32,369 bases of DNA from Granulicella sp. (GTDB lineage Bacteria > Acidobacteriota > Terriglobia > Terriglobales > Acidobacteriaceae): NCBI GenBank assembly GCA_025359825.1, contig JANYER010000272.1, positions 1 through 32,369 of the forward strand. The letters are read 5' to 3'. Under the pieces are notes generated by a model, which saw only the letters and a list, made by a program, of their open reading frames with translations, was not told the origin of the DNA and ran no database searches. Positions 8,988-28,907 of the stretch are shown here, one piece after another (position 1 is the first letter of the stretch; each line of letters starts with the position of its first letter). A program made the position numbers and the translations under genes.

Positions 8988-9064
8988 GATGTTTCCTCCC
9001 TGCAATGACTACCGAAACTCGGTTTGATATTCGTTGGCTTGTTCCTTCTTTTCTAATCGAGTTT

Positions 9065-10330
9065 TTATGGATTGAATCTGTCTGGCCAGCGCCAACGCGA
9101 TACCAGGTAGGCCTTGTCGTTCTCGAAGGCGGCGGCGAGGTTTTGAATGTGTTTCTCGGGCGGTTCGCCGGAATCGGAGAGACGGATGTGCGATGCGACC
9201 CAGGCGAGGTAGAGAGGCGTGAGCGCGCCGAGGAGATGTCCGCGGTTGAGCGTTCGCTGACGGTACGCGAGGATGAAGTCGTAGACGATGCGGACCCAGA
9301 GGGCATCGCTCATATGGAAGCGCTCGGCGGGCATGAGCGACAGGTGCTTGAGGCCCACCAGGGAGTTGGGCGGCAGGACAAGCGACCAGATTCCGGAGAG
9401 GTTGGTATAGGCGAGGCGAAAGGCATCGAGCATGGGCTGTACATCGGGCCATGGGACAGTGGAGGCGATTGCAGCCGGGACAGCCTTTGCCGGCTGCAAG
9501 GGACGAACGCGCTGCCAGTAGGTCGCCTTCGCGTCGATATCACTGAAGAGAGAACCTAAGACCACCGCTAACAGTGCATTAAGATCCGTAGGCGGCGGTT
9601 GAGGGGAAGAGTATAGGCCAGTCGGCACCTCAACGATGGTGAAGTTGTTGATGGCTGCTTCGGTGACAGGCCAGACGATTGCGTCTTCTGATCCTAAGGA
9701 CGCCAACGCAGGTCTAGCTCGCAGTGCGAGCCGCTCTGCCATGCGATACGAGAGGCCAAGATCGACGGATAGGGGAAAGCGTGGGAACGCTCCGAAAAGC
9801 GTGCGGGTTAGAGGATAGAGAATGGCTGAGTTGACCAAGCCTTGATGGGAGCCGATTTGATAGTAGGGAACTGCAAGATCGACGTTGCCTGCGAGTACCG
9901 CGACTCCAAGTTTAAGAAGGGAGGCAGGGCTGAGCGAGTCCGACTCTGCGCCGAGGATGAGACAAGCCTTCGCGCCGTGGTCCTGCATGGCCTGGAAGGC
10001 GTAGACGTAGTCTGCAGCGGTGATAAATCGATTTGCGATGGAAAGGGATGAGGCTGGTACGGGCAGTGTCTGAAGATTGGGGAAGCTATCCGCTGCAATT
10101 GCTGCTGCGTCGTATCCGGGTGTTGCAACGAAGACACCCTGTCCGGGATCTTGCCCCTCGAAGGTCTGATTCAAGTGAGACAGAGTGAGGGCGAAGGATT
10201 CGCTGGACCGCGGACTGAGCCATACCAGCAGGCCCTCCAGACTAGCCGGATTACCCAGAGTAGCGGGCGAGCCGTGGGGCTCGGGGTGGAGGGTCGTTCC
10301 AACGTTGCTTGAATTAAGGTCCGTCGTCAT
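9065..10330 (-). CDS. GT-A-like glycosyltransferase distantly resembling glucosylglycerate synthase (GpgS/GT81-like), motifs degenerate
   Basis: ACLILGAESDSLSPASLLKL in the place of a DxD segment; DLAVPYYQ...LVNSAILYPLTRTLFGAFPRFPLSVDLGLSYRMAERL; C-terminal LNRGHLLGALTPLYLAWVASHI...EDNKAYLVSRWRWPDRF-type architecture. Start codon overlaps the treS stop (ATGA). Confidence 0.5.
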   Translation of the reverse strand: MTTDLNSSNVGTTLHPEPHGSPATLGNPASLEGLLVWLSPRSSESFALTLSHLNQTFEGQDPGQGVFVATPGYDAAAIAADSFPNLQTLPVPASSLSIANRFITAADYVYAFQAMQDHGAKACLILGAESDSLSPASLLKLGVAVLAGNVDLAVPYYQIGSHQGLVNSAILYPLTRTLFGAFPRFPLSVDLGLSYRMAERLALRARPALASLGSEDAIVWPVTEAAINNFTIVEVPTGLYSSPQPPPTDLNALLAVVLGSLFSDIDAKATYWQRVRPLQPAKAVPAAIASTVPWPDVQPMLDAFRLAYTNLSGIWSLVLPPNSLVGLKHLSLMPAERFHMSDALWVRIVYDFILAYRQRTLNRGHLLGALTPLYLAWVASHIRLSDSGEPPEKHIQNLAAAFENDKAYLVSRWRWPDRFNP

Positions 10331-12144
10331 CTTTCAGTCTTTCTGGTCAGGTCTGAACGCTGTGCAGTATCGGGAGCATCGGGTGTCAGGGGCACCTGAA
10401 CTTCCGTATCGCCTGGGTGTCGTGCAAGCTCTGCAGCCTCCTCATCGCTGAGTGAGGCGGGCGGTTGGGGGGCCTCTGGTGCGGGTTGCAGCTCCAGCCA
10501 GAAGAACGAGTACGGCGTGAGTGTGACGGCGTAAAGCTGCTGGGAAATGGGTGGAAATGGGACGTAGCCGAGCATTTCTACGGGGACGCACCCTGCAAAT
10601 TGGGCGAGATCGAGTAATGCCGGCTGTGCGAAGCGAGAGAGATTTGCGACGCAGAGGACAGTCTCGATGTGACCGTCGAGAAGAGTGTAGCGACGGAGGT
10701 AGGCTAGGACTTTGCGGTTGGTAGGGCTGAGAAATTCAAGCGTACCGCGACCGAAGACCTGGAAGAGTTTGCGAAGAGCAATCATGTTGCGCGTCCAGTG
10801 GAGCAACGATGACTGGTCCGATAGCTGGGTCTCTACATTGACGGCCTGATAGCCATAGATTGGGTCCATGACGACGGGAAAGTAGAGTCTCTCCGGCACT
10901 GCAGTGGAGAAGCCGGCGTTGCGGTCGGGGTTCCAGTGCATCGGAGTGCGAACGCCGTTGCGGTCGCCGAGATAGATGTTGTCGCCCATGCCAATCTCGT
11001 CTCCGTAGTAGACGATGGGGGTGCCGGGAAAGCTGAAGATCAGGGAGTTGAGAAGTTCGATGCGGCGGCGATTGTTGTCGACCAAGGGAGCGAGGCGGCG
11101 ACGGATTCCTACGTTGATCCGCATCTTGGGATCGGCGGAGTAAGCGTAGTACATGTAGTCGCGCTCGTCGTCGGTTACCATCTCGAGGGTGAGTTCATCG
11201 TGGTTGCGCAGGAAGAGTGCCCACTGACAGTTATCCGGAATGGGGGGCGTCTGGGCCATGATGTCGGTGATGGGAAGGCGGTCTTCCTGACGTAAGGCCA
11301 TGTAGATGCGCGGCATCAAGGGGAAGTGGAAGGCCATGTGACACTCATCCCCGTCGCCAAAGTAGGGACGGACGTCGCTGGGCCACTGGTTGGCTTCCGC
11401 GAGGATAATGCGGTTGGTGTAGTCGGCATCTATGGCGGCGCGGATACGTTTGATGGCGGCATGGGTCTCCGGGAGAGACTCGCAGCGGGTGCCGTCTCGC
11501 TCGTAGAGGTAGGGGATGGCATCCATGCGCAGTGCATCGACGCCCATGTCCAGCCAGAAGCGCATGGCCTTCAGAACCTCTTCCATGACGGCTTCGTTAT
11601 CGAAGTTGAGGTCTGGCTGATGGGAGAAGAAGCGATGCCAGTAGTAGGCACCAGCAACTTCGTCCCAGGCCCAGTTGGACTTCTCCGTGTCTTTGAAGAT
11701 GATGGGCACGTCTCTATAACGTTGGTTGTCCTGGGACCAGACGTAGAAGTCTCGCAGCGGAGAGCCGGAGGGAGCGTTGCGGGCTGCCTGAAACCACGGA
11801 TGTTGATCCGAGGTGTGATTGATCACCAATTCAATGAGCACCTGCATACCGCGTTTGTGAGCTTCATCCAGGAAGGCCTTGAAGTCGGCGAGCGTTCCAT
11901 AGACCGGATTCACGTCTACGTAGTTGGCAATGTCGTAGCCGTCGTCGCGTAGTGGAGACGGAAAAAATGGAAGCAACCAGAGACAGGTCACTCCGAGGTC
12001 CTGGAGGTAGTCGAGACGGGAGATCAAGCCGGGAAAGTCGCCCACTCCGTCGCCGTTGGAATCCTGAAAGGCACGAACGTGCAACTCATAGATAATCGCG
12101 TCTTTGAACCATAGGACATCGGTCGCACTGCCGGCTTTCTTCAC
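10327..12144 (-). CDS. treS: Trehalose synthase / maltose alpha-D-glucosyltransferase (GH13)
   Basis: WFKDAIIYELHVRAFQDSNGDGVGDFPGLISRLDYLQDLGVTCLWLLPFFPSPLRDDGYDIANY, DMGVDALRMDAIPYLYERDGT, ILAEANQWP, LFLRNHDELTLEMVTDDERDYMY, PIVYYGDEIGMGDNIYLGDRNGVRTPMHW. GTG start. Confidence 0.93.
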   Translation of the reverse strand: MKKAGSATDVLWFKDAIIYELHVRAFQDSNGDGVGDFPGLISRLDYLQDLGVTCLWLLPFFPSPLRDDGYDIANYVDVNPVYGTLADFKAFLDEAHKRGMQVLIELVINHTSDQHPWFQAARNAPSGSPLRDFYVWSQDNQRYRDVPIIFKDTEKSNWAWDEVAGAYYWHRFFSHQPDLNFDNEAVMEEVLKAMRFWLDMGVDALRMDAIPYLYERDGTRCESLPETHAAIKRIRAAIDADYTNRIILAEANQWPSDVRPYFGDGDECHMAFHFPLMPRIYMALRQEDRLPITDIMAQTPPIPDNCQWALFLRNHDELTLEMVTDDERDYMYYAYSADPKMRINVGIRRRLAPLVDNNRRRIELLNSLIFSFPGTPIVYYGDEIGMGDNIYLGDRNGVRTPMHWNPDRNAGFSTAVPERLYFPVVMDPIYGYQAVNVETQLSDQSSLLHWTRNMIALRKLFQVFGRGTLEFLSPTNRKVLAYLRRYTLLDGHIETVLCVANLSRFAQPALLDLAQFAGCVPVEMLGYVPFPPISQQLYAVTLTPYSFFWLELQPAPEAPQPPASLSDEEAAELARHPGDTEVQVPLTPDAPDTAQRSDLTRKTER

Positions 12145-12467
12145 TCGGAGAACCTCTCTTACTTACCGAACCTCATTACCGAAATTCGAGCTGATGCATT
12201 ATGACCTATTGTCCTTGTGATTGCGGCGAGAGAGTTCGGGGTAGTCCAATCCAATCAATGTGATGCGATCCACAGGCCAGTCGTTTGCCTGTCGTGATCT
12301 TCACCCGCTCAAAATGGTGTTTTCAAGGGACTTAGACGATGGGTTTTATGACGTACAACCCCATCCTGGTTTTGCGACTCTAAACCCACTTCTGAATCAG
12401 TTTGAGTCACGCAATGCCTATGCGTGAACTGTGACATTTGAGCCGCATCTCAGATTGGCTATTGATC

Positions 12468-15137
12468 ATGCTTCGTACTCCCGTTTCTACCTATCGACTC
12501 CAACTTCACAAAGATTTCGCGTTTGACGATGCAGGCCGCATTGCGGATTATTTGGCTGAACTCGGCGTAACTCACATCTATAGTTCCCCGTACCTGATGT
12601 CCGCACCGGGGAGTACGCATGGCTACGATGTCGTGGACCATCAACGCGTGGATGAGGAGTTGGGTGGAGCTGAAGGCCACGAGCGATTCTGCCATCGTCT
12701 GCATGAGCTTGGCCTAGGGCAAGTTCTGGATCTTGTGCCGAACCACATGTCGCTCCGGCGCGAGAACCGCTTCTGGTGGGATGTACTGGAGAACGGGACT
12801 TCGAGCCGCTACGCATCGTTCTTTGATATCGACTGGCAATCTCACGAAGAGCGTCTTAGAAATAAAGTTATGCTACCAATTCTTGCCGATCACTATGGGA
12901 GGGTGCTGGATAGTGAAGGTATCAAGCTCACACGCGACGGAGGGTTGTTCTACGTTGAATGTGCCGGGCAGGAACTGCCGATTGCGCCGCCCACACTGCC
13001 CTCTATTCTGAGTCGCGCGGCGGAGTATGCGAAGTCGGACACGCTCAATTTTCTGGCTGTTGCCTTTAGACGCCTTCCGGCTCCGGAGTACGTTGACCGG
13101 CGCACTATTCTTGGACGTCATCGCGATAAGACGGTCCTGTATGGCTTACTGCAGCGACTGTGCGAGGAAGATTCCAATGTCCGTGAACAACTTGATGCGG
13201 TCGTGGCGGAGATTAACTCGAACAAGGACGCGCTGGATGATCTGCTGAATCAGCAAAATTACCGCCTCTCCTATTGGAAGGCCGCAGATCAGCAGCTTGG
13301 GTATCGCAGATTCTTCGATGTCAATTCGCTAATCGGCGTGCGGATGGAGCGAGAGCACGTATTCGAAGAGACGCATGCCCTGGTGCTGGATTGGCTGGAA
13401 CGAGGCATGCTGGATGGTGTGCGGGTGGACTATCCGGATGGGCTGCGCGACCCGCACCAATACTTCCAACGCCTGCGCGAACGTGCACCCCATGCATGGA
13501 TCGTAGGCGAGAAGATTCTGGAGCCGAACGAGTTCCTGCCGGCAAGCTGGCCGATCCAAGGTACCAGCGGCTATGACTTTCTTAATATGGCACTCGGCGT
13601 GTTGGTACGGCCAGAGGGTCTGGCTGAGCTCGATACGGTGTATTCCGACTTTATTGGTGGGAGCGCTTCCTTTGCAGCGATTGCACACGAAAAAAAGATT
13701 GCAATCGCAAAGGAATCGCTCGGCAGCGACGTCAACCGATTAACCTCCTTGCTGGTAGAGATCTGCGAGTGCAACCGCAATCAGCGGGACTACACACGAG
13801 CGGAGATGCGACGGGCAATTCGCGAGCTGGCAGCTTGCTTTCCTACCTATCGCAGCTACGTGCTCCCCGAGCGTAACGAAATTACTGTTGCCGACAGAAT
13901 TGTGATTGCGCAGGCCATCGAATGTGCAAAGTCTAAGCGACAGGACATCGACGCAGACCTATTCGACTTTATGCACGAGATTCTTACGCTGGGTGTGACC
14001 GGCAAGCTGGAGACTGAGTTCTTGCTGCGTTTTCAGCAATTTACTGGTCCAGTGATGGCTAAAGGTGTGGAAGATACAGCGTTCTACTGCTACAACCGAC
14101 TGACCGGCATGAATGAAGTGGGAGGTGATCCGGGACGAGATGGGTTGTCGGTCGAAGACTTTCACGTCTATTGCGCCAAGATGCAGGCTAACCATCCTCT
14201 AACGATGACGACGCTTTCTACGCATGACACCAAGCGGAGCGACGATGTGCGTGCCCGGCTTGCGACGCTTACTGAACTACCCGGCCACTTCAAAGCGGCC
14301 GTGCATCGGTGGTCGAGGATGAATGCAGAGTTCCATGCGGTTCATGCCAATGGCGGCCCGATCTTCGATCGCAATAGTGAGTACTTCTACTACCAGACGC
14401 TGATCGGTGCATGGCCGATTGAGCTTGACCGGATTACCTCGTATATGGAAAAAGCGATGCGGGAGGCCAGGCAGCAAACCTCGTGGTCGGCCAACAATGT
14501 CGACTTTGAAGCGGAGATGAGGAGCTTTATCGAGAAGACGCTGCAGCATGAGCCATTCCTGAAAGAGCTGGAACAGTTTGTGGAGTTCGTGCGGCCCGCG
14601 GGGCGGGTGAACTCCTTAGCGCAGACTCTAATGAAGAGCACCGCACCGGGTGTCCCAGACCTATACCAGGGCGCAGAGTTGTGGGACTTGAGCCTGGTAG
14701 ATCCTGACAATCGCAGGCCGGTTGACTACGCTCTGCGCTGCAGACTGCTGAATGAGATGAAGAGAATGTCAGTCGAACAGGTGATGGAGAGGATGGATGA
14801 GGGATTACCGAAGTTGTGGACGATCTATCATTCCTTGCAGTTGCGGCGCGTACACCCTGATTGGTTCGGCGCGGAAGGGGCGTACCGTCCTCTTCGGATT
14901 AGCGGAACGAAAAAAGACCATGCTCTGGCCTATTTACGAGGTGGAAATGTCATTACTCTGGTGCCACGTTTCACGATCAAGCTGCGCGAAAATTGGGGAA
15001 ATACCGGTGTGGCATTGCCGCAGGGAGAATGGCGAAATCGGTTGACTGGCGGAGTAATCAGCGGTGGCCGGGTGTCCGTCGAAGCACTACTGCGAGAGTT
15101 TCCAGTTGCGCTGCTGGTACGCGAAGGTCAGGCTTGA
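12468..15137 (+). CDS. treY: Maltooligosyl trehalose synthase
   Basis: PVSTYRLQLHKDFAFDDA, YLAELGVTHIYSSPYL, GSTHGYDVVDH, VLDLVPNHM, DGVRVDYPDGLRDPHQYFQRL, WIVGEKILEPNE, GTSGYDFLN, TLSTHDTKRSDDVRARL, PGVPDLYQGAELWDLSLVDPDNRRPVDY. ORF opens at 12438 but ATG 12468 is the more likely start. Confidence 0.94.
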   Translation: MLRTPVSTYRLQLHKDFAFDDAGRIADYLAELGVTHIYSSPYLMSAPGSTHGYDVVDHQRVDEELGGAEGHERFCHRLHELGLGQVLDLVPNHMSLRRENRFWWDVLENGTSSRYASFFDIDWQSHEERLRNKVMLPILADHYGRVLDSEGIKLTRDGGLFYVECAGQELPIAPPTLPSILSRAAEYAKSDTLNFLAVAFRRLPAPEYVDRRTILGRHRDKTVLYGLLQRLCEEDSNVREQLDAVVAEINSNKDALDDLLNQQNYRLSYWKAADQQLGYRRFFDVNSLIGVRMEREHVFEETHALVLDWLERGMLDGVRVDYPDGLRDPHQYFQRLRERAPHAWIVGEKILEPNEFLPASWPIQGTSGYDFLNMALGVLVRPEGLAELDTVYSDFIGGSASFAAIAHEKKIAIAKESLGSDVNRLTSLLVEICECNRNQRDYTRAEMRRAIRELAACFPTYRSYVLPERNEITVADRIVIAQAIECAKSKRQDIDADLFDFMHEILTLGVTGKLETEFLLRFQQFTGPVMAKGVEDTAFYCYNRLTGMNEVGGDPGRDGLSVEDFHVYCAKMQANHPLTMTTLSTHDTKRSDDVRARLATLTELPGHFKAAVHRWSRMNAEFHAVHANGGPIFDRNSEYFYYQTLIGAWPIELDRITSYMEKAMREARQQTSWSANNVDFEAEMRSFIEKTLQHEPFLKELEQFVEFVRPAGRVNSLAQTLMKSTAPGVPDLYQGAELWDLSLVDPDNRRPVDYALRCRLLNEMKRMSVEQVMERMDEGLPKLWTIYHSLQLRRVHPDWFGAEGAYRPLRISGTKKDHALAYLRGGNVITLVPRFTIKLRENWGNTGVALPQGEWRNRLTGGVISGGRVSVEALLREFPVALLVREGQA

Positions 15138-15176
15138 TGTAGTTTTATAAGCTGAGGGTGGAGGATCGAAGGCACG

Positions 15177-16916
15177 ATGCATAGCTTTAGTGTGTGGGCC
15201 CCCAAGATCAAGCGGCTGGCGGTGAAGGTGGGCCAGCAGACTTATCCGATGAGTGGTCCGAACGAGCAAGGCTATTGGAATGCCTCAGTGGACGAGGCGG
15301 TTGCCGGATCGGATTACGCGTTTTTGCTGGACAGCGATACGACGGCTTATCCCGACCCGCGCAGTGCCTGGCAGCCGCATGGTGTACATGGCGCTTCGCG
15401 GATTGTTGATCAAAGTGCTTTCTGCTGGACCGATCAAGCGTGGCAGACACCGCCGCTGGAAACCGCGATCCTCTACGAGCTCCACGTAGGAACGTTTACG
15501 CCGCAAGGCACGTTCGATGCTGCGGTGGAGCGGCTCGACTATCTGGTTGCGTTGGGGATCACACATGTTGAGCTGCTGCCGATCACGGAGTTTCCAGGAG
15601 ATTTTGGTTGGGGATACGATGGCGTTTCTCTATTCGCGGTGCGCCATCAGTATGGCGGCCCAGACGGGCTCAAGCGGCTTGTCGATCAGTGTCATCAACA
15701 CGGACTCGCGGTGATTGTCGATGTGGTCTACAACCACTTCGGACCGGTAGGGAATTACGCGAACAAGTTTGGCTTCTATCAAAGTGACAGACACCATACG
15801 CCGTGGGGCGAGGCCATCAACTTTGAGAGCGGCGGTAGCGACGAGGTGCGGCGCTTTTTTTGTGACAACGCAATCATGTTCCTGGCTGACTATCACGTGG
15901 ACGGGCTGCGCCTGGATGCGGTGCATGAGTTTATCGATCAGTCCGCGATTCACTTCATGGAGCAGCTTGCCATTGAGGTAGACGCTCTCTCCAAAAAGCT
16001 GGGACATCGGAAGGTCCTGATCGCAGAGAGTGATCTGAACGACCCACGCTTGGTCACACCGCGCGATCAGAGAGGATATGGGCTGGATGCGCAATGGAGT
16101 GATGACTTTCATCATGCGCTCTTTACCATCCTCCACCCTTCGGAGAAGACCGGTTACTACGCCGATTTCGGGTCTCTAGCCATGCTTGCCAAGGCACTGA
16201 AAGAAGCGTTCGTCTACGACGGGCAATACTCGTTGTACCGGGGCCACTCGCATGGCCGTTCTGCCCAGGGTCTATCGCTACATCGCTTTCTTGGATACAT
16301 CCAGAATCACGATCAGGTTGGCAATCGCGCAACGGGCGACCGTCTCGAACACATCATCGGGCCGGAGCTCTCCAAGGTAGCGGCTGGGCTGGTGTTGATG
16401 GCGCCTTTTATCCCGATGCTGTTTCAGGGAGAGGAGTTTGCGGCGTCCAGCCCGTTCCAGTTCTTTGCGCACCATGAAGAGGCGGAGCTGGCAAAGGCTG
16501 TCTCTGAGGGCCGCAAGCGTGACTTTGCAGCTTTTGGATGGCATCCGGATTCGGTGCCAGACCCCGAGAGCCAAGCGACTTTTGAACGCTCCACTCTGAA
16601 GTGGGACGAGGTGACGATGCCGCCGCATCAGGAGATGCTGACGTGGTACACCGACCTCATCCGTCTACGCCGGGCGACTCCGGGCTTGAATGTTGGAGAT
16701 GCAAGCACGATTGAAATTACGTTTGACGAGTCGGAGCGTTGGCTGGTTATGGATCGCGGAGCAATTCAGGTTGTGTGCAATTTCAGCGATGCTGTGCAAA
16801 CGTTGCCGTGTAAGCCAAACGCCAGCCTGCTGCTGGCTTCCTCATCGGAGGTGCGTTGCGCTGAGTCAAATGTCGTTCTGCCAGCACGGAGCCTGGCGAT
16901 TACAACCGCACTCTAG
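15177..16916 (+). CDS. treZ: Malto-oligosyltrehalose trehalohydrolase
   Basis: ILYELHVGTFTPQGTFDAAVERLDYLVALGITHVELLPITEFPGDFGWGYDGVSLFAV, VIVDVVYNHFGPVGNY, DGLRLDAVHEFIDQ, LIAESDLNDPRLV, YIQNHDQVGNRATGDR, MLFQGEEFAASSPFQFFAHHEE. Confidence 0.94.
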   Translation: MHSFSVWAPKIKRLAVKVGQQTYPMSGPNEQGYWNASVDEAVAGSDYAFLLDSDTTAYPDPRSAWQPHGVHGASRIVDQSAFCWTDQAWQTPPLETAILYELHVGTFTPQGTFDAAVERLDYLVALGITHVELLPITEFPGDFGWGYDGVSLFAVRHQYGGPDGLKRLVDQCHQHGLAVIVDVVYNHFGPVGNYANKFGFYQSDRHHTPWGEAINFESGGSDEVRRFFCDNAIMFLADYHVDGLRLDAVHEFIDQSAIHFMEQLAIEVDALSKKLGHRKVLIAESDLNDPRLVTPRDQRGYGLDAQWSDDFHHALFTILHPSEKTGYYADFGSLAMLAKALKEAFVYDGQYSLYRGHSHGRSAQGLSLHRFLGYIQNHDQVGNRATGDRLEHIIGPELSKVAAGLVLMAPFIPMLFQGEEFAASSPFQFFAHHEEAELAKAVSEGRKRDFAAFGWHPDSVPDPESQATFERSTLKWDEVTMPPHQEMLTWYTDLIRLRRATPGLNVGDASTIEITFDESERWLVMDRGAIQVVCNFSDAVQTLPCKPNASLLLASSSEVRCAESNVVLPARSLAITTAL

Positions 16917-19900
16917 TGTTTAGCTTCCTTCAACACGGAGCGGGTCTGGAGGCTGCGAATGTGCGTCCGGCTGAGGGGTCGCTCGTGCAGCAGAAGTTCC
17001 GAAGCGAGTACTTTCGGGTTCTCGTGGAACCAATGTTGGAAGGCATCTTCACACAAGATATTGGTGATTGCCATCAGTGACATGCCTTGATGATGGGCCA
17101 TCCATGATCGAACGAACAGTGGATTTCTCCGGTCGCTGAAATCTACGGCTTCGTAGAATCCATAGTCTCCGACCCATCCTTTCGCTTTCATCGTTTCCAG
17201 GTTCGCAAACGCTTGCTTGCGCGCAAAGGGCATCGCCAAGAAGGTGGAGTATGGAGAGATAACTGGGCCGTCTTCAGCGCCATACTTCAATGCCAGATTT
17301 GGAACGCCCCATGCGCGATAGAGGTATCGGCCCTGTGGATCGGTCTGACCGAAGCCAGATTCGGAAATGCCCCACGGAATTCCCCGAACGTGTTTGCGTT
17401 GAATTTCGACGACAGAATCCAGCGTTCGGGATACAAGACTATTGGGGTAAGTCCTCATCCAAAGGGCGGGCATCATGTACTCGAACATGGTGCCCGTCCA
17501 CGAGATAAGTGCAGCACAGCCGTTGACAGAGGTGTGGGTCCGATCCAGGCGGAACCAGGCACTTTGAGGAATGTCTCCCGTGGCAATGGCGAGGAAGTAT
17601 GCCATGCGGGCTTCCGAAGCAAAAAGGTCGTAGCATGAATTAATAATTTCGCCACGGTCATCATCGTAGCCAATCGACAGCAGCGATCTGGATGGAACGA
17701 AGAGGAAGTCGAAGCGCATGTCGTCTGCGAATTGCTCCGCTAGCCGAGAGATACGCAGGATAGTGTGGAGGAGTAGTCCTAGGCGCTCGACTACGGCTGG
17801 AAGGAGGTTGGCCAGTTCGCGGGCGGCCTCCCTGTGCTGCGATTCTTCCCATTGAGCGCAGAGTTTTTGAAGCGCACGGACTGCGTCCTGTGCTTCCGCT
17901 AAGACCGGGACCGATTGCTGATTAAATGCCAGCTTGCGAAACTCTGGGCTGCTGGTGATCGAATTAAAGCGAGGGAACAACCATGGGGTGTACTGCGCTA
18001 TAAAGGAGTTCGCAGCGTCTTGCCGACGAGCCATTTCTTCAGCTAGCCATGTATCAGATGTTGTGCCGGATTTCTGCTGGATTGCATCTGTGGAATTGAG
18101 GGACCACTCGAGGAGTGTGGAGTTTAGGAGAGGCTGCTTGAGCAGGTCTTGGGTGCCACCATGAAGCGTACGCATAGCAGCGGCGAGGTTTCCGCTATCG
18201 ACCGTCGATATGATGCGGGGAATGATGGGTTTCAGGGTCTCGATGTCATACCAGTTATAGATGTGGCCGTGATGCTTCTCTAACGTCTCATAGGTTCGCA
18301 GTGTGTTGAGCGTAAGAGTCGCGAACTGATCCAGTGTTATGAAGCCTAGTTTTAGCGCGGCCTGTCGGGCGTTGATCAACATGCCGAGGTTGGTGGGGGA
18401 GAGGGTTCGAACCTGTCTCAGATCTTTCTCTTCAACATTGTCGGGGATGAGCCAATGATTTTGCGCTCCCCCAAACTCGGAGAAGTATCTCCACGTGAGA
18501 AGGGCGTAGTCGTTTAAGACGTGGCGCTCTCGCGTCGACAAGGATTTTGTTGAGCTGCGAAGAGGTGAATCGAGCCAGACGGCGATGAGTGGAGCGATGG
18601 CCCACAGAAACAGGATGGGGCCCGCAGCAATGAGCGTCGTAGGGCGAATGATGCCGATGAGTATGGCGAGGATGATCGAGAGCGCCGGGCTCAGGGATAG
18701 GTACAAATCCAGCGTGCTTCGCGAACTGGATGATTCGGACTGGGCTGCTGTTTCCCATTCCAGCAGGCGTTTGCCTGTTATATGTCGTCGCACCATGGAG
18801 CGGATGATTGCGTCCAGCGATAGGAGGGTTTGCTGGAAGATGAACGTAAGGGTCAGCAGGTTGAAGCCGAGGGAGCCCAGGAAGGTTCGGATGCTGTCCT
18901 CAGCTGCGTCCGCGCTCTTTGTTGCTACGGCGCGCGAGAGACCGAAGACCAGTTCTACAACGACCGGTGCCAGCAGAAGGGTGAGGGTAACGAAGGTCCA
19001 GTACCAGGGCGGGCCCGGTAGAAAGAGCCAGCCGCAGATCAGTAGGAGAAAAGTAATCGGCTCGACCAGGCTGCGGCGCAGGTTATCGAAGATCTTCCAG
19101 CGAGAGATGACGTTGATGGGGTTGGCGACATACTTGCCCGACTCATCGGGAACTTTATCGAGGAGCCACTGTGCAATCTGCCAATCGCCACGTACCCAAC
19201 GGTGTTTGCGGCGCGTGTAGGCTGAGTGGCGGGACGGATAGTCGTCTATCAATTCGACGTCGCTGGCCAGACCCACGCGAGCGTAGGAGCCTTCGATCAG
19301 ATCATGCGAGAGGAGGGTATTGCGTGGGAAGCGATGGTCGAGCACCTGATGGAAGATGGCAACTTCGTAGATACCTTTGCCTGCGAAGATGCCTTCGCCG
19401 AAGAGATCCTGATAGACGTCGGAGACGGCGCGTGTGTAGATGTCGAAGCCGGTCTCTCCTGAGTAAAGTGCTGCTAGGCGCGAACGGGAGGCGGAGGCTA
19501 CGCTGACTCCTACGCGCGGTTGCAGAATTCCATAGCCGGCAGTGACGATTCTCGATCGCGAGTCGACGATGCCTTGATTTAATGGGTGCGCCATTGCCCC
19601 TACTAACCGAGCGGCTGTGCCGCGCGGGAGCTTGGTGTCCGAGTCGAGCGTGATGACGTAACGAACTTTGCTAAGTGCATCGATGGGCCCGACCTTTACC
19701 GGAAAGCTATCGAAGGCACCCAGCAAGAGTTGGTTGAGATCGAGCAGCTTGCCTCGCTTCCGCTCCCAGCCCATCCATACACCCTGGCGGCGATTGTAGA
19801 TCCTGTGACGATGCAGCAGCAGAAAGCCTCCGCCTCCAAGCCAATCCGAGTACTTTGCGTTGAGCTCGTTGGTTAGCTTGACTGCGAGATCGACCAGATC

Positions 19901-21292
19901 ATTTCGATCTTCTGCATGGGGCTTTTCGTCGGAGTCCGGAAGGTCGGTCAGAACAGCAAAGTGGAGATTGGGGTACCGGTTCGACAGGTATCGGACCTCC
20001 ATGTCCTTGAAGATTTCCCGAGTCTGTTTCTCGTTTATTAAGAGAGTTGGTACTGCAACGACGGCAGTGTGCTCTATTGGGATCGACTTCGAAAAATCCA
20101 TCTTGGGCAGAGCGTGTGGAGTCTGAATCGCACCAACAGTGCTGTTGACCAAGGCGGATGCACCTTGGGTTGCAGGCAGCAGAGCGAGCAGCAGTGCACC
20201 CATGGTCAACGTAAATTCATGAGCAGGAACAAGCGGTGCAATCAGCGCAGCAATCAACACGATGGATAGAACGGAGATCGAGATGATGTAGATGTCTACT
20301 TTGTAGCGGTGTAAGATTGCGCCGATTTTTTGTGTGACGGGTGGGTGATAGCCGATTCGAACTTTTAGTTGCTCGATGCCTTCCGCCAGCAGGTAGTAGC
20401 CCACATGCGCAAGGCGTCTTTGAAGACGGGCGTCGGCCACGGGTGTTGTCGTCGCCAAGCGGGACAGCTCAAGCACTGCCTGAGCAATTTCTACCTCGCT
20501 GCAATCGGCATGCTTCGCGAGTGCCGCTATCTGCTCCCGATAGGATGCCCGGCCCTCTTCCTCCATGTTCCCGTAGGCGCCGGTTGGATCTTCCAACAAG
20601 ATGGTGTGGAACGGAACGATCTGCTCCAGGAGCAGCCGCCATTCAAACTGATGGAGTCTCCGCAAGGAATGGATGGGCGATGAGAACGGGGAGTGCTCAA
20701 TCGACGGCATCGGGCCCGCTGCCACTGTAGCGTCCGCTCGATCGATAAGAAACTCGAGCTGCGCTAACTTGAGCGCGTCTGGTAGCAGCAAAACCTCGGT
20801 ATAGGAGAGGGGATGGTGGCGCTGAAGCTCATGGCTGTATTGCAAGAAAGATTCCTGCGACCAGATTCCTTGTACTGCGACCAGGTATTGCTCAACTAAA
20901 TGCAGGACGCGGGGGATGGCCCGTTCTTCTACGCGGACGGCTGGGACGCGTGCGAACTTGCTGTGGCCGGCTTCAATGGCTTTGAGCAACATTTCGAACA
21001 ACCGGACACTCTCGAGAAACTCAAGAGGTGGGGTAAGTCCTTGTGTTGTCGTCATCGCCTGGAAGGAGTGCACCCGTTCGGCCAGGCGCCTCTTAAGGGA
21101 CGCCAACCTCGCTTTCAAAACCAGGATGTCTGGTTCCAACTGAATGCTTCGAATCTGGGTCGCCACATGCTGCGCATGCAAACGTAGATCGTTCTCGGAG
21201 ATCGAGGACCGCTCCCGTAGACCAGTCTCCTTCTGCTCCGTGGGCAGATGCGGGGAGGGGACAGCGACGAAGTTGGTTCCGAGCTCTGCCAT
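16913..21292 (-). CDS. Cyclic beta-1,2-glucan synthase-like protein: GT84-type transferase plus glycoamylase-like (GH189-type) domain; C-terminal GH94 region absent
   Basis: TLDSDTKLPRGTAARLVGAMAHPLNQ (DxD), RKHRWVRGDWQIAQWLL (QxxRW-like), several TM segments, C-terminal IPWGISESGFGQTDPQGRYLYRAWGVPNLALKYG...VISPYSTFLAM...YGFYEAVDF...SWMAHHQGMSLMAI...ELLLHERPL. ORF ends at residue 1459. Good RBS (AAGGAT) before ATG 21292. Confidence 0.87.
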   Translation of the reverse strand: MAELGTNFVAVPSPHLPTEQKETGLRERSSISENDLRLHAQHVATQIRSIQLEPDILVLKARLASLKRRLAERVHSFQAMTTTQGLTPPLEFLESVRLFEMLLKAIEAGHSKFARVPAVRVEERAIPRVLHLVEQYLVAVQGIWSQESFLQYSHELQRHHPLSYTEVLLLPDALKLAQLEFLIDRADATVAAGPMPSIEHSPFSSPIHSLRRLHQFEWRLLLEQIVPFHTILLEDPTGAYGNMEEEGRASYREQIAALAKHADCSEVEIAQAVLELSRLATTTPVADARLQRRLAHVGYYLLAEGIEQLKVRIGYHPPVTQKIGAILHRYKVDIYIISISVLSIVLIAALIAPLVPAHEFTLTMGALLLALLPATQGASALVNSTVGAIQTPHALPKMDFSKSIPIEHTAVVAVPTLLINEKQTREIFKDMEVRYLSNRYPNLHFAVLTDLPDSDEKPHAEDRNDLVDLAVKLTNELNAKYSDWLGGGGFLLLHRHRIYNRRQGVWMGWERKRGKLLDLNQLLLGAFDSFPVKVGPIDALSKVRYVITLDSDTKLPRGTAARLVGAMAHPLNQGIVDSRSRIVTAGYGILQPRVGVSVASASRSRLAALYSGETGFDIYTRAVSDVYQDLFGEGIFAGKGIYEVAIFHQVLDHRFPRNTLLSHDLIEGSYARVGLASDVELIDDYPSRHSAYTRRKHRWVRGDWQIAQWLLDKVPDESGKYVANPINVISRWKIFDNLRRSLVEPITFLLLICGWLFLPGPPWYWTFVTLTLLLAPVVVELVFGLSRAVATKSADAAEDSIRTFLGSLGFNLLTLTFIFQQTLLSLDAIIRSMVRRHITGKRLLEWETAAQSESSSSRSTLDLYLSLSPALSIILAILIGIIRPTTLIAAGPILFLWAIAPLIAVWLDSPLRSSTKSLSTRERHVLNDYALLTWRYFSEFGGAQNHWLIPDNVEEKDLRQVRTLSPTNLGMLINARQAALKLGFITLDQFATLTLNTLRTYETLEKHHGHIYNWYDIETLKPIIPRIISTVDSGNLAAAMRTLHGGTQDLLKQPLLNSTLLEWSLNSTDAIQQKSGTTSDTWLAEEMARRQDAANSFIAQYTPWLFPRFNSITSSPEFRKLAFNQQSVPVLAEAQDAVRALQKLCAQWEESQHREAARELANLLPAVVERLGLLLHTILRISRLAEQFADDMRFDFLFVPSRSLLSIGYDDDRGEIINSCYDLFASEARMAYFLAIATGDIPQSAWFRLDRTHTSVNGCAALISWTGTMFEYMMPALWMRTYPNSLVSRTLDSVVEIQRKHVRGIPWGISESGFGQTDPQGRYLYRAWGVPNLALKYGAEDGPVISPYSTFLAMPFARKQAFANLETMKAKGWVGDYGFYEAVDFSDRRNPLFVRSWMAHHQGMSLMAITNILCEDAFQHWFHENPKVLASELLLHERPLSRTHIRSLQTRSVLKEAKH

Positions 21293-21349
21293 TTAATCCT
21301 TGGTCCTTTTGATTCTTGAATCGCTCGATTTTTTGGGTGCGGCAGAGAA

Positions 21350-23188
21350 TTACCGATAACTTGCCGCTTGCATTTCAAACATCTGGGCATACAGACCGCC
21401 AGTGTTCATGAGTGATTGATGATTTCCTTCCTCGATCAAACGGCCGTTTGAGAGCACGACGATTCGGTCTGCGATTCGCACTGTTGAAAACCGGTGAGAG
21501 ATCAGGAGTGCCATCTTGCCTTCGGTCAGCTCCGCAAAGCGCTCAAAGACTTCCAGCTCGCTGCGGGCATCCAGAGCGGCGGTGGGCTCGTCGAGAACCA
21601 GTAACTGAGAGTCGCGGAGGTAGGCGCGGGCAAGAGCCATCTTCTGCCATTCCCCACCCGACAGCTCCACACCCCCTTCGAACCGTCGTCCCAGAATCTG
21701 GTCATAGTGGTGTTCGAGTTTGGTGATTACAGTGTCCGCAAGGCTCTTGTGGGCGGCCGATTCGATACTGCTGCGGTCATCGATTTTGTTGATGCTGCCT
21801 ACAGCGATGTTGTCGAGGGCACTCATTTCATAGCGCATGAAGTCTTGAAAGACGACTCCGATCTCCTGATGGAGGTCTTCCATGGAGTATTCGCGCAGAT
21901 CAATTCCATCCAGAAGTATTTGACCTTCGGTTGGATCGTAGAGCCGGGTGATGAGTTTTACGATAGTGGTTTTTCCCTGGCCGTTCTCGCCCACCAATGC
22001 CACTCGCTGGCCGGGTTCCAATAAAAAATTGAAGTCCTTGAGGACAGTCCGGGAGGTGCCCGGATAGGTAAAGGAGACGTTCCGAAACTCGAAGCCAGTT
22101 CGAACCGGACGCGGAACTGACAGCGCATTGGGCTTTGACTGGACTGTTGCTTTCATATCGAAGAAGGCGACCAGGTCGGTCAAGAAAAGGGCCTGGTCTG
22201 CGATGCCGGAGGCAGTTGAAAAGACCTGTTGCAGATTGGAACTCGCCTGCTGAATCGCAGCGGTAAGGAAGGTGAACTGGCCGATGTCGTAGTTGCCGCC
22301 CAGGGTTCGCCAAATCACAAAAATATAAGCACCGTAGTATCCAAGCGTTCCGACGATTCCAAGCAGGCCGCCGACAATCAGCTTGGATCGCGACAGGGCT
22401 ATGTCTTCCCGGTAGATCTCATTGGCAAGGGTTTGAAATCGTTCACTGAAGAATTGACTGAGGCCAAAGAGTTTGACCTCCTTTGCACCTTGGCGGCCGC
22501 CAACTACCTCGCGAAGATAATCCATCTGCCGCTTGGTAGGGGTTTGGCGGAAGTTTTTAGCATAGCCAAGGAAGGCGTAGTGAGCCTCTCCAAGGAAGGC
22601 GGGCAGGACTCCTACAGCCAGCATCAGTAACAGCCAAGGGGATGCCCAGGCCAGTGCAATGGAAAAGATTGCAGTCAGGAGAATTTGCTGGAACAAACGC
22701 CCCATCTGCTGGATCATCACCAAGCGGTCCGTGGCCTGCACACGAGCCCGTTCGAGCCGGTCATAGAAGACTGGATCTTCGTAGGTCGTTAGATCGAGGG
22801 TGGCCGCCTGCTCCATGACTCGCACACTGATGTACTGCGTGTACCGATTGCCCTGCAAGGCATCGAAGTAGTCGATAGCCCGCATGACAAGGCCGAGGAG
22901 CACATTCAGGCCAACTTCCGCAGCTACCAGTTGCCAGAAGTGGGGAGCCAGCGCGTGTTGGCGCAACGCACCGGCAATACCGTTGATGATGTATTGCGCT
23001 ACCTTGGCCATTGCGAATGGAAGTGCCGCCGCAACGATGCGCAGAACAATTCCCCAGATCACTGCGCTTCGACTGGACTCCCACAAAATGCGAAGCACAG
23101 GCCAGACGTTTTTCAGCGCGCGCAGTCTGTCGCGCCAAGGATTGGCTTTAGTGTTGGTGCTGGATTCTATGCGTAAAGAACTCGACAT
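21350..23188 (-). CDS. ABC exporter, fused permease-ATPase (half transporter)
   Basis: Walker A GENGQGKTT, Q-loop FQDFMRYEMSALDNIAVG, signature LSGGEWQKMALARAYL, Walker B LLVLDEPTAALD, H-loop LISHRFSTVRIADRI; N-terminal TM domain. ORF opens at 23422; start at ATG 23188 (MSSSLRIESS) preferred. Confidence 0.88.
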   Translation of the reverse strand: MSSSLRIESSTNTKANPWRDRLRALKNVWPVLRILWESSRSAVIWGIVLRIVAAALPFAMAKVAQYIINGIAGALRQHALAPHFWQLVAAEVGLNVLLGLVMRAIDYFDALQGNRYTQYISVRVMEQAATLDLTTYEDPVFYDRLERARVQATDRLVMIQQMGRLFQQILLTAIFSIALAWASPWLLLMLAVGVLPAFLGEAHYAFLGYAKNFRQTPTKRQMDYLREVVGGRQGAKEVKLFGLSQFFSERFQTLANEIYREDIALSRSKLIVGGLLGIVGTLGYYGAYIFVIWRTLGGNYDIGQFTFLTAAIQQASSNLQQVFSTASGIADQALFLTDLVAFFDMKATVQSKPNALSVPRPVRTGFEFRNVSFTYPGTSRTVLKDFNFLLEPGQRVALVGENGQGKTTIVKLITRLYDPTEGQILLDGIDLREYSMEDLHQEIGVVFQDFMRYEMSALDNIAVGSINKIDDRSSIESAAHKSLADTVITKLEHHYDQILGRRFEGGVELSGGEWQKMALARAYLRDSQLLVLDEPTAALDARSELEVFERFAELTEGKMALLISHRFSTVRIADRIVVLSNGRLIEEGNHQSLMNTGGLYAQMFEMQAASYR

Positions 23189-23389
23189 TTTGATTCGTTG
23201 AGGTGGTCTTTTGATCTGGGCTGATTTTTTGAGATGAACATGAGATGGACCGAGGGAGGCCATTAGCAGAGCACAATGGTATGTCTGCGTATGTAACTGT
23301 ATGAAACGCAATTTTTCGGATGCTTTTTTTAGGGATTTAGTAGCCTGAAAAATCTGCTTATTCCCGGGTAAAAATGAGTTTGTCCACGG

Positions 23390-23423
23390 CAGAAATTTCT
23401 GCATCGTTAATTTCCGCATCATT
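23390..23423. promoter_or_regulatory. Possible operator: 12-bp perfect palindrome overlapping a tandem 15-bp repeat
   Basis: CAGAAATTTCTG (23390-23401) is self-complementary; AATTTCTGCATCGTT (23394-23408) is followed directly by AATTTCCGCATCATT (23409-23423), 2 mismatches. Located in the intergenic region between divergent exporter genes. Confidence 0.4.
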
Positions 23424-23564
23424 CATTTTCCCTGTTGAAGGGATATCCATCGGTATCCGCGCGGTTGGTCGGTCCATGCAGACAGATGGCGTGCAGAGGG
23501 TGCTGGACGATCATTTTTTCTGTCCTTTTCTCCTGTTTCGGAACGTTTTGCGTGGCGTGTTCTG

Positions 23565-23592
23565 TTGTCTAGTTACGCAATCGCGCTATAGT
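23565..23592 (+). promoter_or_regulatory. Putative promoter of the polysaccharide export operon
   Basis: TTGTCT (23565-23570), 16-nt spacer, TATAGT (23587-23592), upstream of the SLBB gene. Confidence 0.4.
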
Positions 23593-23666
23593 TCGGTAAG
23601 CTGTACGCGTGACATGAAGTTCGAGAGAACCCCTATAAGGGGGGACTTGCCGGGCATCGAAATATC

Positions 23667-26204
23667 GTGAAGAGACAGGACCTAGCCAGCGTGAATGCAG
23701 GAAACATAAGGACTTATACGGGCAGAACCAGACGTTCCCTGGTTGGCGCAACCACTTGTTTCTGCTTGTTTGCACTTGTCCTCGGTCCCCTTGGGTCCCG
23801 TCTGCGTGCGCAGACTTCCGAGAATGGATTGGATGATTTGCGACCTGTCGTTCCATTCCCCGTGGCGCCCCTCATGGTTGGTGGAGCGATGCAATCGTCG
23901 GGGCTGGAGGGGCAGCGTGACACGAATCCGCCCAGTAGTACGCCCACGACTACCACTACGCGCAAGACTTCGACCGGTACAGCGCGGAGCACGGCGGGCG
24001 CTGACACCGGTGAAGAGCGTCGTGCGAACCGAGCGGCTGCAGTACCTCCGGCTCCGACTGAGTTTCAGCGAATGATCGCTTCGACGACGGGTCGACTGTT
24101 GCCGATTTTCGGGGCGTCGTTGTTTGTGGGGGATGTACCTTCGACGTTTGCTCCGGTGGACGACATCCCTGTGTCTCCGGATTACGTGATCGGACCCGGG
24201 GATGAGCTGCGCCTGCAGCTTTGGGGCCAGGTGAATCTGGAAGGCTCGTTTGTTGTTGACCGAACGGGAATGATCTCCGTGCCGCAGATGGGTACGATCC
24301 ATGTTGCCGGGCAACGCTATGACCGGCTGAATGAGTTTTTGCGGTCGGAGTTTGGGCGGGTGTACCGGAACTTCAACCTGACGGTGACGATGGGGCAGCT
24401 CCGTACGATCCAGGTGTTTGTTGTGGGACAGGCGACCCGGCCAGGGAGCTATACGATCAGCTCTCTAAGCACATTGCTGAATGCACTATTCACGTCAGGC
24501 GGCCCGCTGCCGCAGGGCAGTCTGCGCGATATCCAGGTGAAGCGTGGAGCGCAGACGATCGTCCACTTCGACCTGTATGACCTGCTGCTGCACGGGGACA
24601 AGAGCAAAGATATCGTCCTTGCGCCGGGCGATGTGATCTTTATCCCTCCGGTAGGGCCGCAGGTGGGGTTGTTGGGAAGTGTGAACAACGCTGCGATCTA
24701 TGAACTCAAGAAGGACGCCACGGGCACGACTACGGTGGCCGACCTGCTGGAGCTTGGTGGGGGGCGGACGAGTAGTGCAGCGGGATCGCAGGCCCGGTTG
24801 GAGCGGATTGTGGACCGCTCGGTGTTGAGCGTTATCGATGTTGATCTGCTGAAGCCGGAGGCTACACCCTTACAGGGTGGAGATGTCGTTTCGGTGATCT
24901 CGGTTGTCGACCACTTTAAAGATGCAGTTACGTTGCGGGGGAATGTTGCAAACCCGGGGCGGTATGTATGGCACGCGGGCATGCGTGTCAGCGACTTGAT
25001 TCCGAACAAAGAGTCGCTGGTGACACGGAACTACTGGCAGAGACGCAACCAGCTTGGGCAGCCCATCAATGAGTATCAGCCAGGTGCGGCGGATACGGGC
25101 GCGACGGGTTCGTTGCAGGTGAGCGGCTCGTCCACCGATGCGGCATCCGATCGGGTGACGCAGGGTGGAGCGGCGCGAACGAGTGAGGGTGGCAGCTCGG
25201 TGGCAGCGGCTCTCTCCGGTACGAACGGAATATTTCCCGCCAAGACGGACGTGGTCTTGAGTGCCCCCGATATTAACTGGAGCTACGCAGTGATTGAGCG
25301 GCAGAAGGCGTCGGACCTGACGACTACACTGGTCTCGTTCAACCTGGGTAAGGTGATTCTGGAGAGCGACCCGAGCCAGAATCTGGAGCTGCTTGCCGGC
25401 GATGTAGTGACGATCTTTTCGACAGCGGATCTAAGAGTGCCGAGTTCGCAGCAGACGCGCTTCGTGCGGCTGGAGGGAGAGTTTGTCGCTTCGGGTGTCT
25501 ATAGCGTGCAGCCGGGGGAGACGCTGCGGCAGCTGTTGAAGCGCGCCGGCGGACTGACTTCGGATGCTTATCTGTACGCTTCGGAGTTTACGCGGCAATC
25601 TACCAAACGGGTGGAGCAACAGCGTTTGAATGAGTATGCCGACCAGTTGGAGGCACAAGTTTCGGCGGAGTCGACAGGGCTGGCAGCGAAGGCGATCAAT
25701 GATCGCGACGCTTCGGCTGCAGTAGCTTCGGCGGCAAACGCTCAGGCTGCCATCGCTCGTCTGCGACGTATTCAGCCGGTGGGACGGATTGTGCTGCAGT
25801 TGAAGCCGGACAGCCGAAGCGTTGACGAAATTCCTGACCTTGCGTTGGAGGATGGCGACCGCTTTGTGGTGCCGCGTGTGCCCTCGAATGTGAATGTGGA
25901 AGGGCAGGTTTATAGCGCGACAGCGTTCGTGTTTGAACGCGGCAGGCGGGTAAAGGACTACCTGAAGATGGCAGGAGGTCCGAGCCGCCAGGCAGACACC
26001 AAACGTACCTTTGTTCTTCGTGCCGACGGGTCGGTGTTGAGTCATCAGTATGCGAACCTGGAGCGATCACTGATGTTCCCTGGCGATACGATTGTGGTCC
26101 CGCTACAGGTGGATCGCCGCGCTGTACTGCGAACACTGGTGGATATAGCGACGGTGGTTGGTCAGTTTGGAATTGGTGTTGCGGCCATTAATGTATTGAA
26201 GTAA
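23667..26204 (+). CDS. Multi-SLBB polysaccharide export protein (Wza-like outer-membrane exporter)
   Basis: Signal peptide; PES/SLBB strings PDYVIGPGDELRLQLWGQVNLEGSFVVDRTGMISVPQMGTIHVAGQ, VFVVGQATRPGSYTISSLSTLLNALFTSGGPLPQGSLRDIQVKR, and further SLBB-like repeats (GEFVASGVYSVQPGETLRQLLKRAGGLT, VEGQVYSATAFVFERGRRVKDYLKMAGGPS). GTG start at 23667, or GTG 23691. Confidence 0.9.
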   Translation: MKRQDLASVNAGNIRTYTGRTRRSLVGATTCFCLFALVLGPLGSRLRAQTSENGLDDLRPVVPFPVAPLMVGGAMQSSGLEGQRDTNPPSSTPTTTTTRKTSTGTARSTAGADTGEERRANRAAAVPPAPTEFQRMIASTTGRLLPIFGASLFVGDVPSTFAPVDDIPVSPDYVIGPGDELRLQLWGQVNLEGSFVVDRTGMISVPQMGTIHVAGQRYDRLNEFLRSEFGRVYRNFNLTVTMGQLRTIQVFVVGQATRPGSYTISSLSTLLNALFTSGGPLPQGSLRDIQVKRGAQTIVHFDLYDLLLHGDKSKDIVLAPGDVIFIPPVGPQVGLLGSVNNAAIYELKKDATGTTTVADLLELGGGRTSSAAGSQARLERIVDRSVLSVIDVDLLKPEATPLQGGDVVSVISVVDHFKDAVTLRGNVANPGRYVWHAGMRVSDLIPNKESLVTRNYWQRRNQLGQPINEYQPGAADTGATGSLQVSGSSTDAASDRVTQGGAARTSEGGSSVAAALSGTNGIFPAKTDVVLSAPDINWSYAVIERQKASDLTTTLVSFNLGKVILESDPSQNLELLAGDVVTIFSTADLRVPSSQQTRFVRLEGEFVASGVYSVQPGETLRQLLKRAGGLTSDAYLYASEFTRQSTKRVEQQRLNEYADQLEAQVSAESTGLAAKAINDRDASAAVASAANAQAAIARLRRIQPVGRIVLQLKPDSRSVDEIPDLALEDGDRFVVPRVPSNVNVEGQVYSATAFVFERGRRVKDYLKMAGGPSRQADTKRTFVLRADGSVLSHQYANLERSLMFPGDTIVVPLQVDRRAVLRTLVDIATVVGQFGIGVAAINVLK

Positions 26205-26228
26205 CGATAAGACGACAAGCAGCGCTGG

Positions 26229-27467
26229 GTGGAATTAGGAAAGGATTCGGGGTTATCAGTGATGCCTAATGGGATGGATGACGAGAACGCAAACAGCGAA
26301 GCGGCAGCCAGTCGCGAAGTCGATCTGCTCGTCATCGTGCTTGTGTTGCGTAGGGACTTGCCCCGTATTGTATTTTTTTCGATTATCGGCTTCGCAATAA
26401 TGCTGGTTGTGATGTTGATTACGAAGCCTGTTTTTTCTTCGACGGCAGTGTTGCTGGTGCCGCAGACAAATCCATCGGCGAGCTCACTGGCATTGCAATT
26501 GGCGACAGGTGGGCTGGACCTTACCGGGGGTGGGTATGAAATCTATCAAGACATTCTGCGCAGCCGCACAGTGGCGGACCATCTGGTCCAGCAGTACGAC
26601 CTGAAGAAGGTCTATGGTGCAAAGACCCTGATGGACACGCGCGCCGTACTGGCGAAGCGGACGTTGATCGACAGCGCGAAGGAAGGATTGGTCCGGGTCA
26701 CGGTTGAAGATGTGGATCCAAAGCGGGCCGCAGACCTGGCGAATAGCTACCTTTCCGAACTCGATACGACAAACCAAGGCCTGGCCATTACCTCAGCTGG
26801 GCAGCAGCGTGCGTACTTCGAACGGGAGATGATCAAGGAGAAGAATGCGCTGGCGGACGCCGAGGTAGAGCTTAAGCGAACCCAGGAGAAAACTGGTGTG
26901 CTGGTGCCACAGTCGCAGGCGATGGCAAACCTGAATTCCCTTGAGACGACCCGAGCACAGATACGACTTCGTGAGGTGCAGTTGGGTGCGCTGTTGCAAG
27001 GGGCAACCGAGCAGAATCCGGAGGTCATCCGGTTGCGCGCCGAGATCGCAGGACTGGGGCGTCAACTACAAAGGATGCAGACAGGCGGAGGCGGCAGCAT
27101 CAGTGGCTTGCCCACCTCGAAGACTCCAGAGATTGCTTTGGAGAGCCTGCGAAAAGCCCGCGAGGTAAAGTTTCACGAGATGCTGTTTGAAATGCTCGCG
27201 CGACAGTATGAAGGAGCCAAGCAAAGCGAGGCGAAGACAGTGTCCATGATTGAGGTGCTGGACCATGCGGTACCGGCGGAGCGAAAGAGCTGGCCTCCGC
27301 GGACGTTGTTTTGCCTGATTGGTCTGCTGGGCGGTGGGGTGATCGGAGTATGTGTAAGCCTGTTCCGAATATTTTTGCAGAATGTTCGCAGTAATCCTGA
27401 GAACCAAAAGCACTACCAGGCAATCGTCGCCGTGCGGCCTGCCCACTCACAACGGGCTGCTGAATAG
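26229..27467 (+). CDS. Wzz/chain-length-determinant-like polysaccharide co-polymerase (no fused kinase domain)
   Basis: N-terminal TM (IVFFSIIGFAIMLVVMLI), STAVLLVPQTNPS, coiled-coil centre (YFEREMIKEKNALADAEVELKRTQEKTG), C-terminal LDHAVPAERKSWPPRTLFCLIGLLGGGVIGV. Start uncertain (GTG 26229 or ATG 26262/26274). Confidence 0.82.
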   Translation: MELGKDSGLSVMPNGMDDENANSEAAASREVDLLVIVLVLRRDLPRIVFFSIIGFAIMLVVMLITKPVFSSTAVLLVPQTNPSASSLALQLATGGLDLTGGGYEIYQDILRSRTVADHLVQQYDLKKVYGAKTLMDTRAVLAKRTLIDSAKEGLVRVTVEDVDPKRAADLANSYLSELDTTNQGLAITSAGQQRAYFEREMIKEKNALADAEVELKRTQEKTGVLVPQSQAMANLNSLETTRAQIRLREVQLGALLQGATEQNPEVIRLRAEIAGLGRQLQRMQTGGGGSISGLPTSKTPEIALESLRKAREVKFHEMLFEMLARQYEGAKQSEAKTVSMIEVLDHAVPAERKSWPPRTLFCLIGLLGGGVIGVCVSLFRIFLQNVRSNPENQKHYQAIVAVRPAHSQRAAE

Positions 27468-27514
27468 ATGAGTGGTCTGGGGCAATACGAATGGTGTGCT
27501 GCGGAGGGCCTAGA

Positions 27515-28855: not shown

Positions 28856-28907
28856 GTGGGCGATAATTGAATCTCCAGTGCGCAGGCACTGTGAACGAAA
28901 GGTAAGG

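Follow-up and report, generated by a model that had tools for sequence, protein, structure and literature searches.

The short synthase and its active sites

The window, that is, the whole stretch of 32,369 nucleotides analysed here, carries on its reverse strand an intact gene for a 1459-residue protein related to the cyclic glucan synthases Cgs and NdvB. The features of the locus are as follows.

10327-16916: treS/treY/treZ
15177..16916, + strand: treZ, convergent with the synthase gene and overlapping its stop by 4 bases
16913-21292, - strand: short synthase ORF, ATG start, 1459 aa, intact
16916..16969, - strand: C-terminal tail of 18 residues in place of the GH94 half, from the alignment
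16970..18568, - strand: GH189 cyclase domain, residues 909-1441, with E1227 (acid/base), E1311 (nucleophile) and the supporting E1271, H1400 and H1401
19013..20095, - strand: GT84 glucosyltransferase, about residues 400-760, with D450, D550, D664, R698 and the primer Y619
20303..21292, - strand: N-terminal scaffold domain, residues 1-330, from a model of residues 1-430 compared with Cgs structures
21350..23422, - strand: B-type ABC exporter (permease plus ATPase), 690 aa, 57 bases upstream of the synthase; putative glucan exporter
23667-31827: exopolysaccharide cluster (EpsE/Wza-like, Wzz)

The protein contains the motifs DSDTKLPRG and RWVRGDWQ. A Pfam search of it finds PF10091 at residues 1225-1426 (E 6.5e-23) and a weak GT2 match, and no GH94 domain (PF17167). 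With phmmer, residues 205-1441 align with residues 287-1521 of the Agrobacterium Cgs (8RF0, E 4.6e-202); towards its C-terminus the protein also matches the GH189 domain of the Thermoanaerobacter Cgs (8WY1). The cyclase of the Agrobacterium enzyme spans residues 979-1535 and its GH94 half begins at 1536 (PMC10901819). Because the alignment ends at Cgs residue 1521, close to the published border at 1535/1536, the stop of the short synthase corresponds to the boundary between the cyclase and GH94. The preliminary description of a synthase-like ORF that stops before GH94 is thus borne out by the ORF, its motifs, Pfam and phmmer. The search for a GH94 domain inside the ORF, named there as a point on which the claim could fail, turned up none.

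Structure prediction of the C-terminal part, also proposed in that description, returned the GH189 fold. The model of residues 909-1459 (pLDDT 91.2, pTM 0.91) has 8WY1 as its best structural match (E 2.4e-36, TMq 0.85), and for the model of residues 1-430 (pLDDT 82.7) the sole significant matches are the Cgs cryo-EM structures. Since the alignments and both models match Cgs or 8WY1, scaffold, GT84 and cyclase are all present in the short synthase.

The active-site residues were compared across the aligned sequences of 27 short synthases and 27 others. D450, D550, D664 and R698 are equivalent to Agrobacterium D527, D624, D739 and R773, and the primer tyrosine Y619 to Y694; all five are identical in the 54 sequences. 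So are E1227, E1271 and E1311 of GH189, the first and last of which correspond to E1356 and E1442 of TiCGS, and H1400 and H1401 are identical in 27/27 short forms. The roles of the GT84 and primer residues are taken from PMC10901819, and those of the GH189 residues from PMC10834661 and PMC11842490. Short and other synthases differ consistently at only 10 alignment positions, one of them an indel and none a known catalytic residue. This comparison of positions revealed no clear feature in the short forms that compensates for the loss of GH94.

The window synthase therefore has the GT84 aspartates, RW motif and primer tyrosine of Cgs as well as the acid/base and nucleophile glutamates of GH189, in an (alpha/alpha)6-type domain that can be aligned with 8WY1. 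What it lacks is the C-terminal GH94 half, the cyclase being followed by 18 residues. As it lacks this feature and shows the other Cgs features tested, we place it in a GH94-less subfamily of the GT84-GH189 synthases.

Distribution of the short form and the search for GH94

The same end point recurs in 80 named Acidobacteriota loci, which are the best matches to the window synthase and so lean towards close relatives; the closest named ones are Granulicella, Terriglobus and Edaphobacter of the family Acidobacteriaceae. Homologues in these loci that are uncut by contig ends terminate at most a few dozen residues from where the cyclase ends, except in L108, where the ORF has 1671 aa and the extra tail is an artefact of a frameshift and Ns. 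In the loci compared, 0-43 residues follow the aligned cyclase in short forms and 1301-1409 in GH94-bearing relatives, whose full length is about 2700-3040 aa. A search of 292 genomes of the order found the short frame in 147, all at least 90% complete apart from the window's own (85.8%, 483 contigs), and several of them single contigs.

In a tree of the shared region, which is unrooted and supported by SH-aLRT only, all short forms fall into one clade (SH-aLRT 100) apart from the GH94-bearing synthases. Two more families (G041/G043 and G422/G624) contribute short forms to the clade, and one of these genomes, G422, carries one long and one short synthase. With L108 scored as short, the architecture changes once on the tree. 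As long forms are widespread, GH94 was likely lost at the base of the short clade.

These data bear on whether the gene is a truncated, degenerate or misread version of a full-length synthase. The unusual length is the one observation in favour of this. Diverged homologues across many genera and in further families end alike, the active sites are intact, and a six-frame search of the window genome finds no GH94; this explanation, which the preliminary description had raised against itself as a sequencing error, is accordingly ruled out for practical purposes. Its statements that NdvB/ChvB-type synthases are about twice as long (2687-3037 aa for GH94-bearing homologues) and that the missing half is not a frameshifted neighbour hold as well: the convergent treZ occupies the downstream space, which leaves no room for a hidden half.

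Two observations concern the form and location of the gene. The synthase of G009 and G023 is encoded in two pieces by overlapping ORFs, one for an N-terminal scaffold of 309 aa and the other for a GT84-GH189 protein of 1159 or 1174 aa (L063 7950-12276, L116 7733-12059 and L117 6367-10760; L063 and L116 look like one genome). On a contig of a MAG labelled Rhodanobacteraceae (L060 7908-12395), the short synthase (54% identity) and its ABC gene (76%) are Acidobacteriaceae-like, through either misbinning or horizontal transfer.

The missing activity could be supplied in trans, by a stand-alone GH94 phosphorylase that trims the chain. Some GH94 above the Pfam cut-off is indeed present in 26/147 short-form genomes. 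Most of these hits are of two kinds: divergent ORFs, which score 34-92 bits, and ORFs some 800-900 aa long, which score 526-601 bits and match cellobiose-type phosphorylases in size and probably in function. In G076 and G183 the GH94 lies in frames of Cgs type. The other 121 genomes, single-contig ones included, have no GH94 above the cut-off, and the six-frame search with PF17167 gave no match in the window genome, at 85.8% completeness. A phosphorylase acting in trans is thus very improbable, and a general stand-alone GH94 partner was dropped after searches of the window's own genome, 60 relatives and the 292 genomes of the order. The genome-wide search suggested in the preliminary description came out negative for the window genome. 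Of its proposal that length control is different or acts in trans, the first part stands, in that a real glucan synthase lacks the GH94 half, whereas control by a separate GH94 protein does not.

Some Acidobacteriaceae (L123, L124 and L125, from G012, G002 and G008) have divergent GH94-like ORFs roughly 930-960 aa long that score 77-97 bits.

Genes linked to the synthase

A homologous ABC gene lies directly upstream on the same strand in 76/76 named loci with upstream sequence; the remaining 4 of the 80 start at a contig edge. It is also found in L115, L154 and L155, which represent the two outlying short lineages. No such ABC gene was found beside long synthases, within about 0.4-5 kb of upstream sequence for most of them. 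The fixed linkage suggests that the protein exports the glucan. It is an exporter of the same general type as ChvA/NdvA/Cgt, but the window protein scores 184/585 and 240/733 bits against the chvA models TIGR01192 and NF010178, below the curated NCBIfam cut-offs, so that it does not qualify as ChvA/NdvA by this measure. It scores better for MsbA than for chvA, and the MsbA score is below the cut-off too.

The surroundings in the window have an osmotic and envelope theme, though the association of these genes with the synthase is not conserved. At 8217-16916, on the other side from the exopolysaccharide cluster, lie treS/treY/treZ and a mechanosensitive-channel-like ORF. The trehalose genes, present in only 2-4/80 loci, were dropped as functional partners, and Wzz of the exopolysaccharide cluster, found in 0/80 neighbourhoods, as a length controller. 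Rfam gave no RNA element upstream of the synthase (window 21000-24000).

Within 8 kb of the synthase, 34/80 loci encode a PF10091 protein about 450-500 aa long, such as the putatively Tat-secreted one at L056 4428-5831, and its solved relatives include beta-1,2-glucanases (8XUL, E 1.1e-67; 5GZH). The window genome has such a glucanase-related gene on another contig (L180 669-2066, C186), with a twin-arginine-like N-terminus, and a second PF10091 gene is missing from only 5/147 short-form genomes. The linked glucanase-related proteins are an independent pointer to beta-1,2-glucan as the probable product of the synthase. The proximity, the copy elsewhere in the window genome and the near-universal second gene would also fit a secreted GH144-type beta-1,2-glucanase that controls or corrects size in trans, by trimming or recycling the exported glucan. 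Such an enzyme would, however, act after ring closure and export, where turnover is as likely a role, and by a hand count the gene is frequent in synthase-free genomes too, about half of them having it. We regard this control as improbable, and GH144 as an obligate partner or size controller was dropped, being too common in genomes without Cgs.

Proposed ring formation and control of ring size

Our main reading, to which we give a probability of roughly 0.7, is that the GH94-less synthase and its ABC partner carry out priming, extension, ring closure and export, with size set without phosphorolysis. GT84 would glucosylate its own Tyr619 and extend a beta-1,2 chain from UDP-glucose. GH189 would then cut and close the chain through E1227/E1311 by intramolecular transglycosylation, leaving the primer, and the ABC protein would export the ring. 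Ring size would depend on how small a loop the GH189 site is able to close and on the geometry from primer to cyclase. Since the GT84, primer and GH189 residues are conserved, it can be argued that the ring chemistry is the same beta-1,2 chemistry as in Cgs; the ring-size distribution is likely different.

Several results on known enzymes are relevant. On its own, the GH189 domain produces rings of DP 17-26, the smallest being 17, and shows no hydrolysis (PMC11842490, PMC10834661); as nothing under DP 17 is formed, a lower size limit is intrinsic to GH189. The long enzymes give shorter products when phosphate is present, and they can do without the GH94 active site (PMC10901819). With no phosphorolytic trimming, rings larger or broader than the usual DP 17-25 are therefore expected. 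When Brucella Cgs is truncated within its phosphorylase domain, cyclic glucans continue to be formed; their DP is higher and their export is poor (PMC11071196). The GH94 half of the Agrobacterium enzyme scaffolds the chain, and its deletion abolishes function (PMC10901819). The Agrobacterium and Brucella results would be reconciled if a synthase and an exporter matched to each other produced and exported larger rings. Two points count against the proposed mechanism: the Agrobacterium enzyme needs the GH94 half while the comparison of positions revealed no compensating feature in the short form, and the ABC protein scores under the ChvA cut-offs.

It is also conceivable that the main product of the short synthase is linear beta-1,2-glucan, GH189 acting intermolecularly by disproportionation when the GH94 surface is missing, and that linear chains are exported. 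GH189 alone does disproportionate short chains, the choice between cyclic and linear product depending on chain length (PMC10834661, PMC11842490), and in Agrobacterium the GH94 half has been suggested to position the chain so that it can be cyclised (PMC10901819). Yet long chains are cyclised by the isolated GH189 without any GH94, the products of the truncated Brucella enzyme are reported as cyclic (PMC11071196), and the cyclase residues are all conserved. A mainly linear product is therefore unlikely, if less so than size control by a secreted glucanase. Returning to the cyclic product, a fuller version is more tentative and in our estimate falls somewhat short of even odds: a compact, self-sufficient Acidobacteriota synthase in which GH189 and its coupling to the exporter set the size, with neither phosphorolysis nor a GH94 surface, and which would make distinct, larger cyclic beta-1,2-glucans.

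A GH94 active-site residue is stated to be conserved in known Cgs homologues, and the GH94 half is regarded as measuring the chain as it grows (PMC10901819). The short clade is a natural counter-example to a GH94 requirement and offers a natural experiment on the parts that determine ring size. An enzyme of about 1450 aa instead of 2800 aa would be useful for structural work and glucan production. Judged from the genes, the findings suggest that a major soil phylum, the Acidobacteriota, makes cyclic beta-1,2-glucans.

The short synthase shares with the three-domain Cgs/NdvB (Agrobacterium 8RF0, Brucella Cgs) the order of scaffold, GT84 and GH189 and the catalytic and primer residues. It differs in the absence of the GH94 half of about 1300 residues, for which the short forms have 0-45, and in forming a separate clade with an ABC exporter gene fixed upstream. 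GH189 likewise acts without GH94 in the isolated domain from Thermoanaerobacter italicus Cgs (8WY1) and in the engineered Brucella Cgs with a truncated phosphorylase, but these are laboratory constructs and the short synthase is natural and conserved. The NdvB-like, BcsA-related 'orphan' proteins of pseudomonads have also been proposed as cyclic beta-glucan synthases without GH94, but are described as cellulose-synthase-like and presented as a novel family (PMC10237404). A search of the open-licence full-text literature found no earlier description of the Acidobacteria short synthase. Short-form sequences are already in public genomes, and plasmid-borne long homologues are mostly annotated there as 'glucoamylase family protein'.
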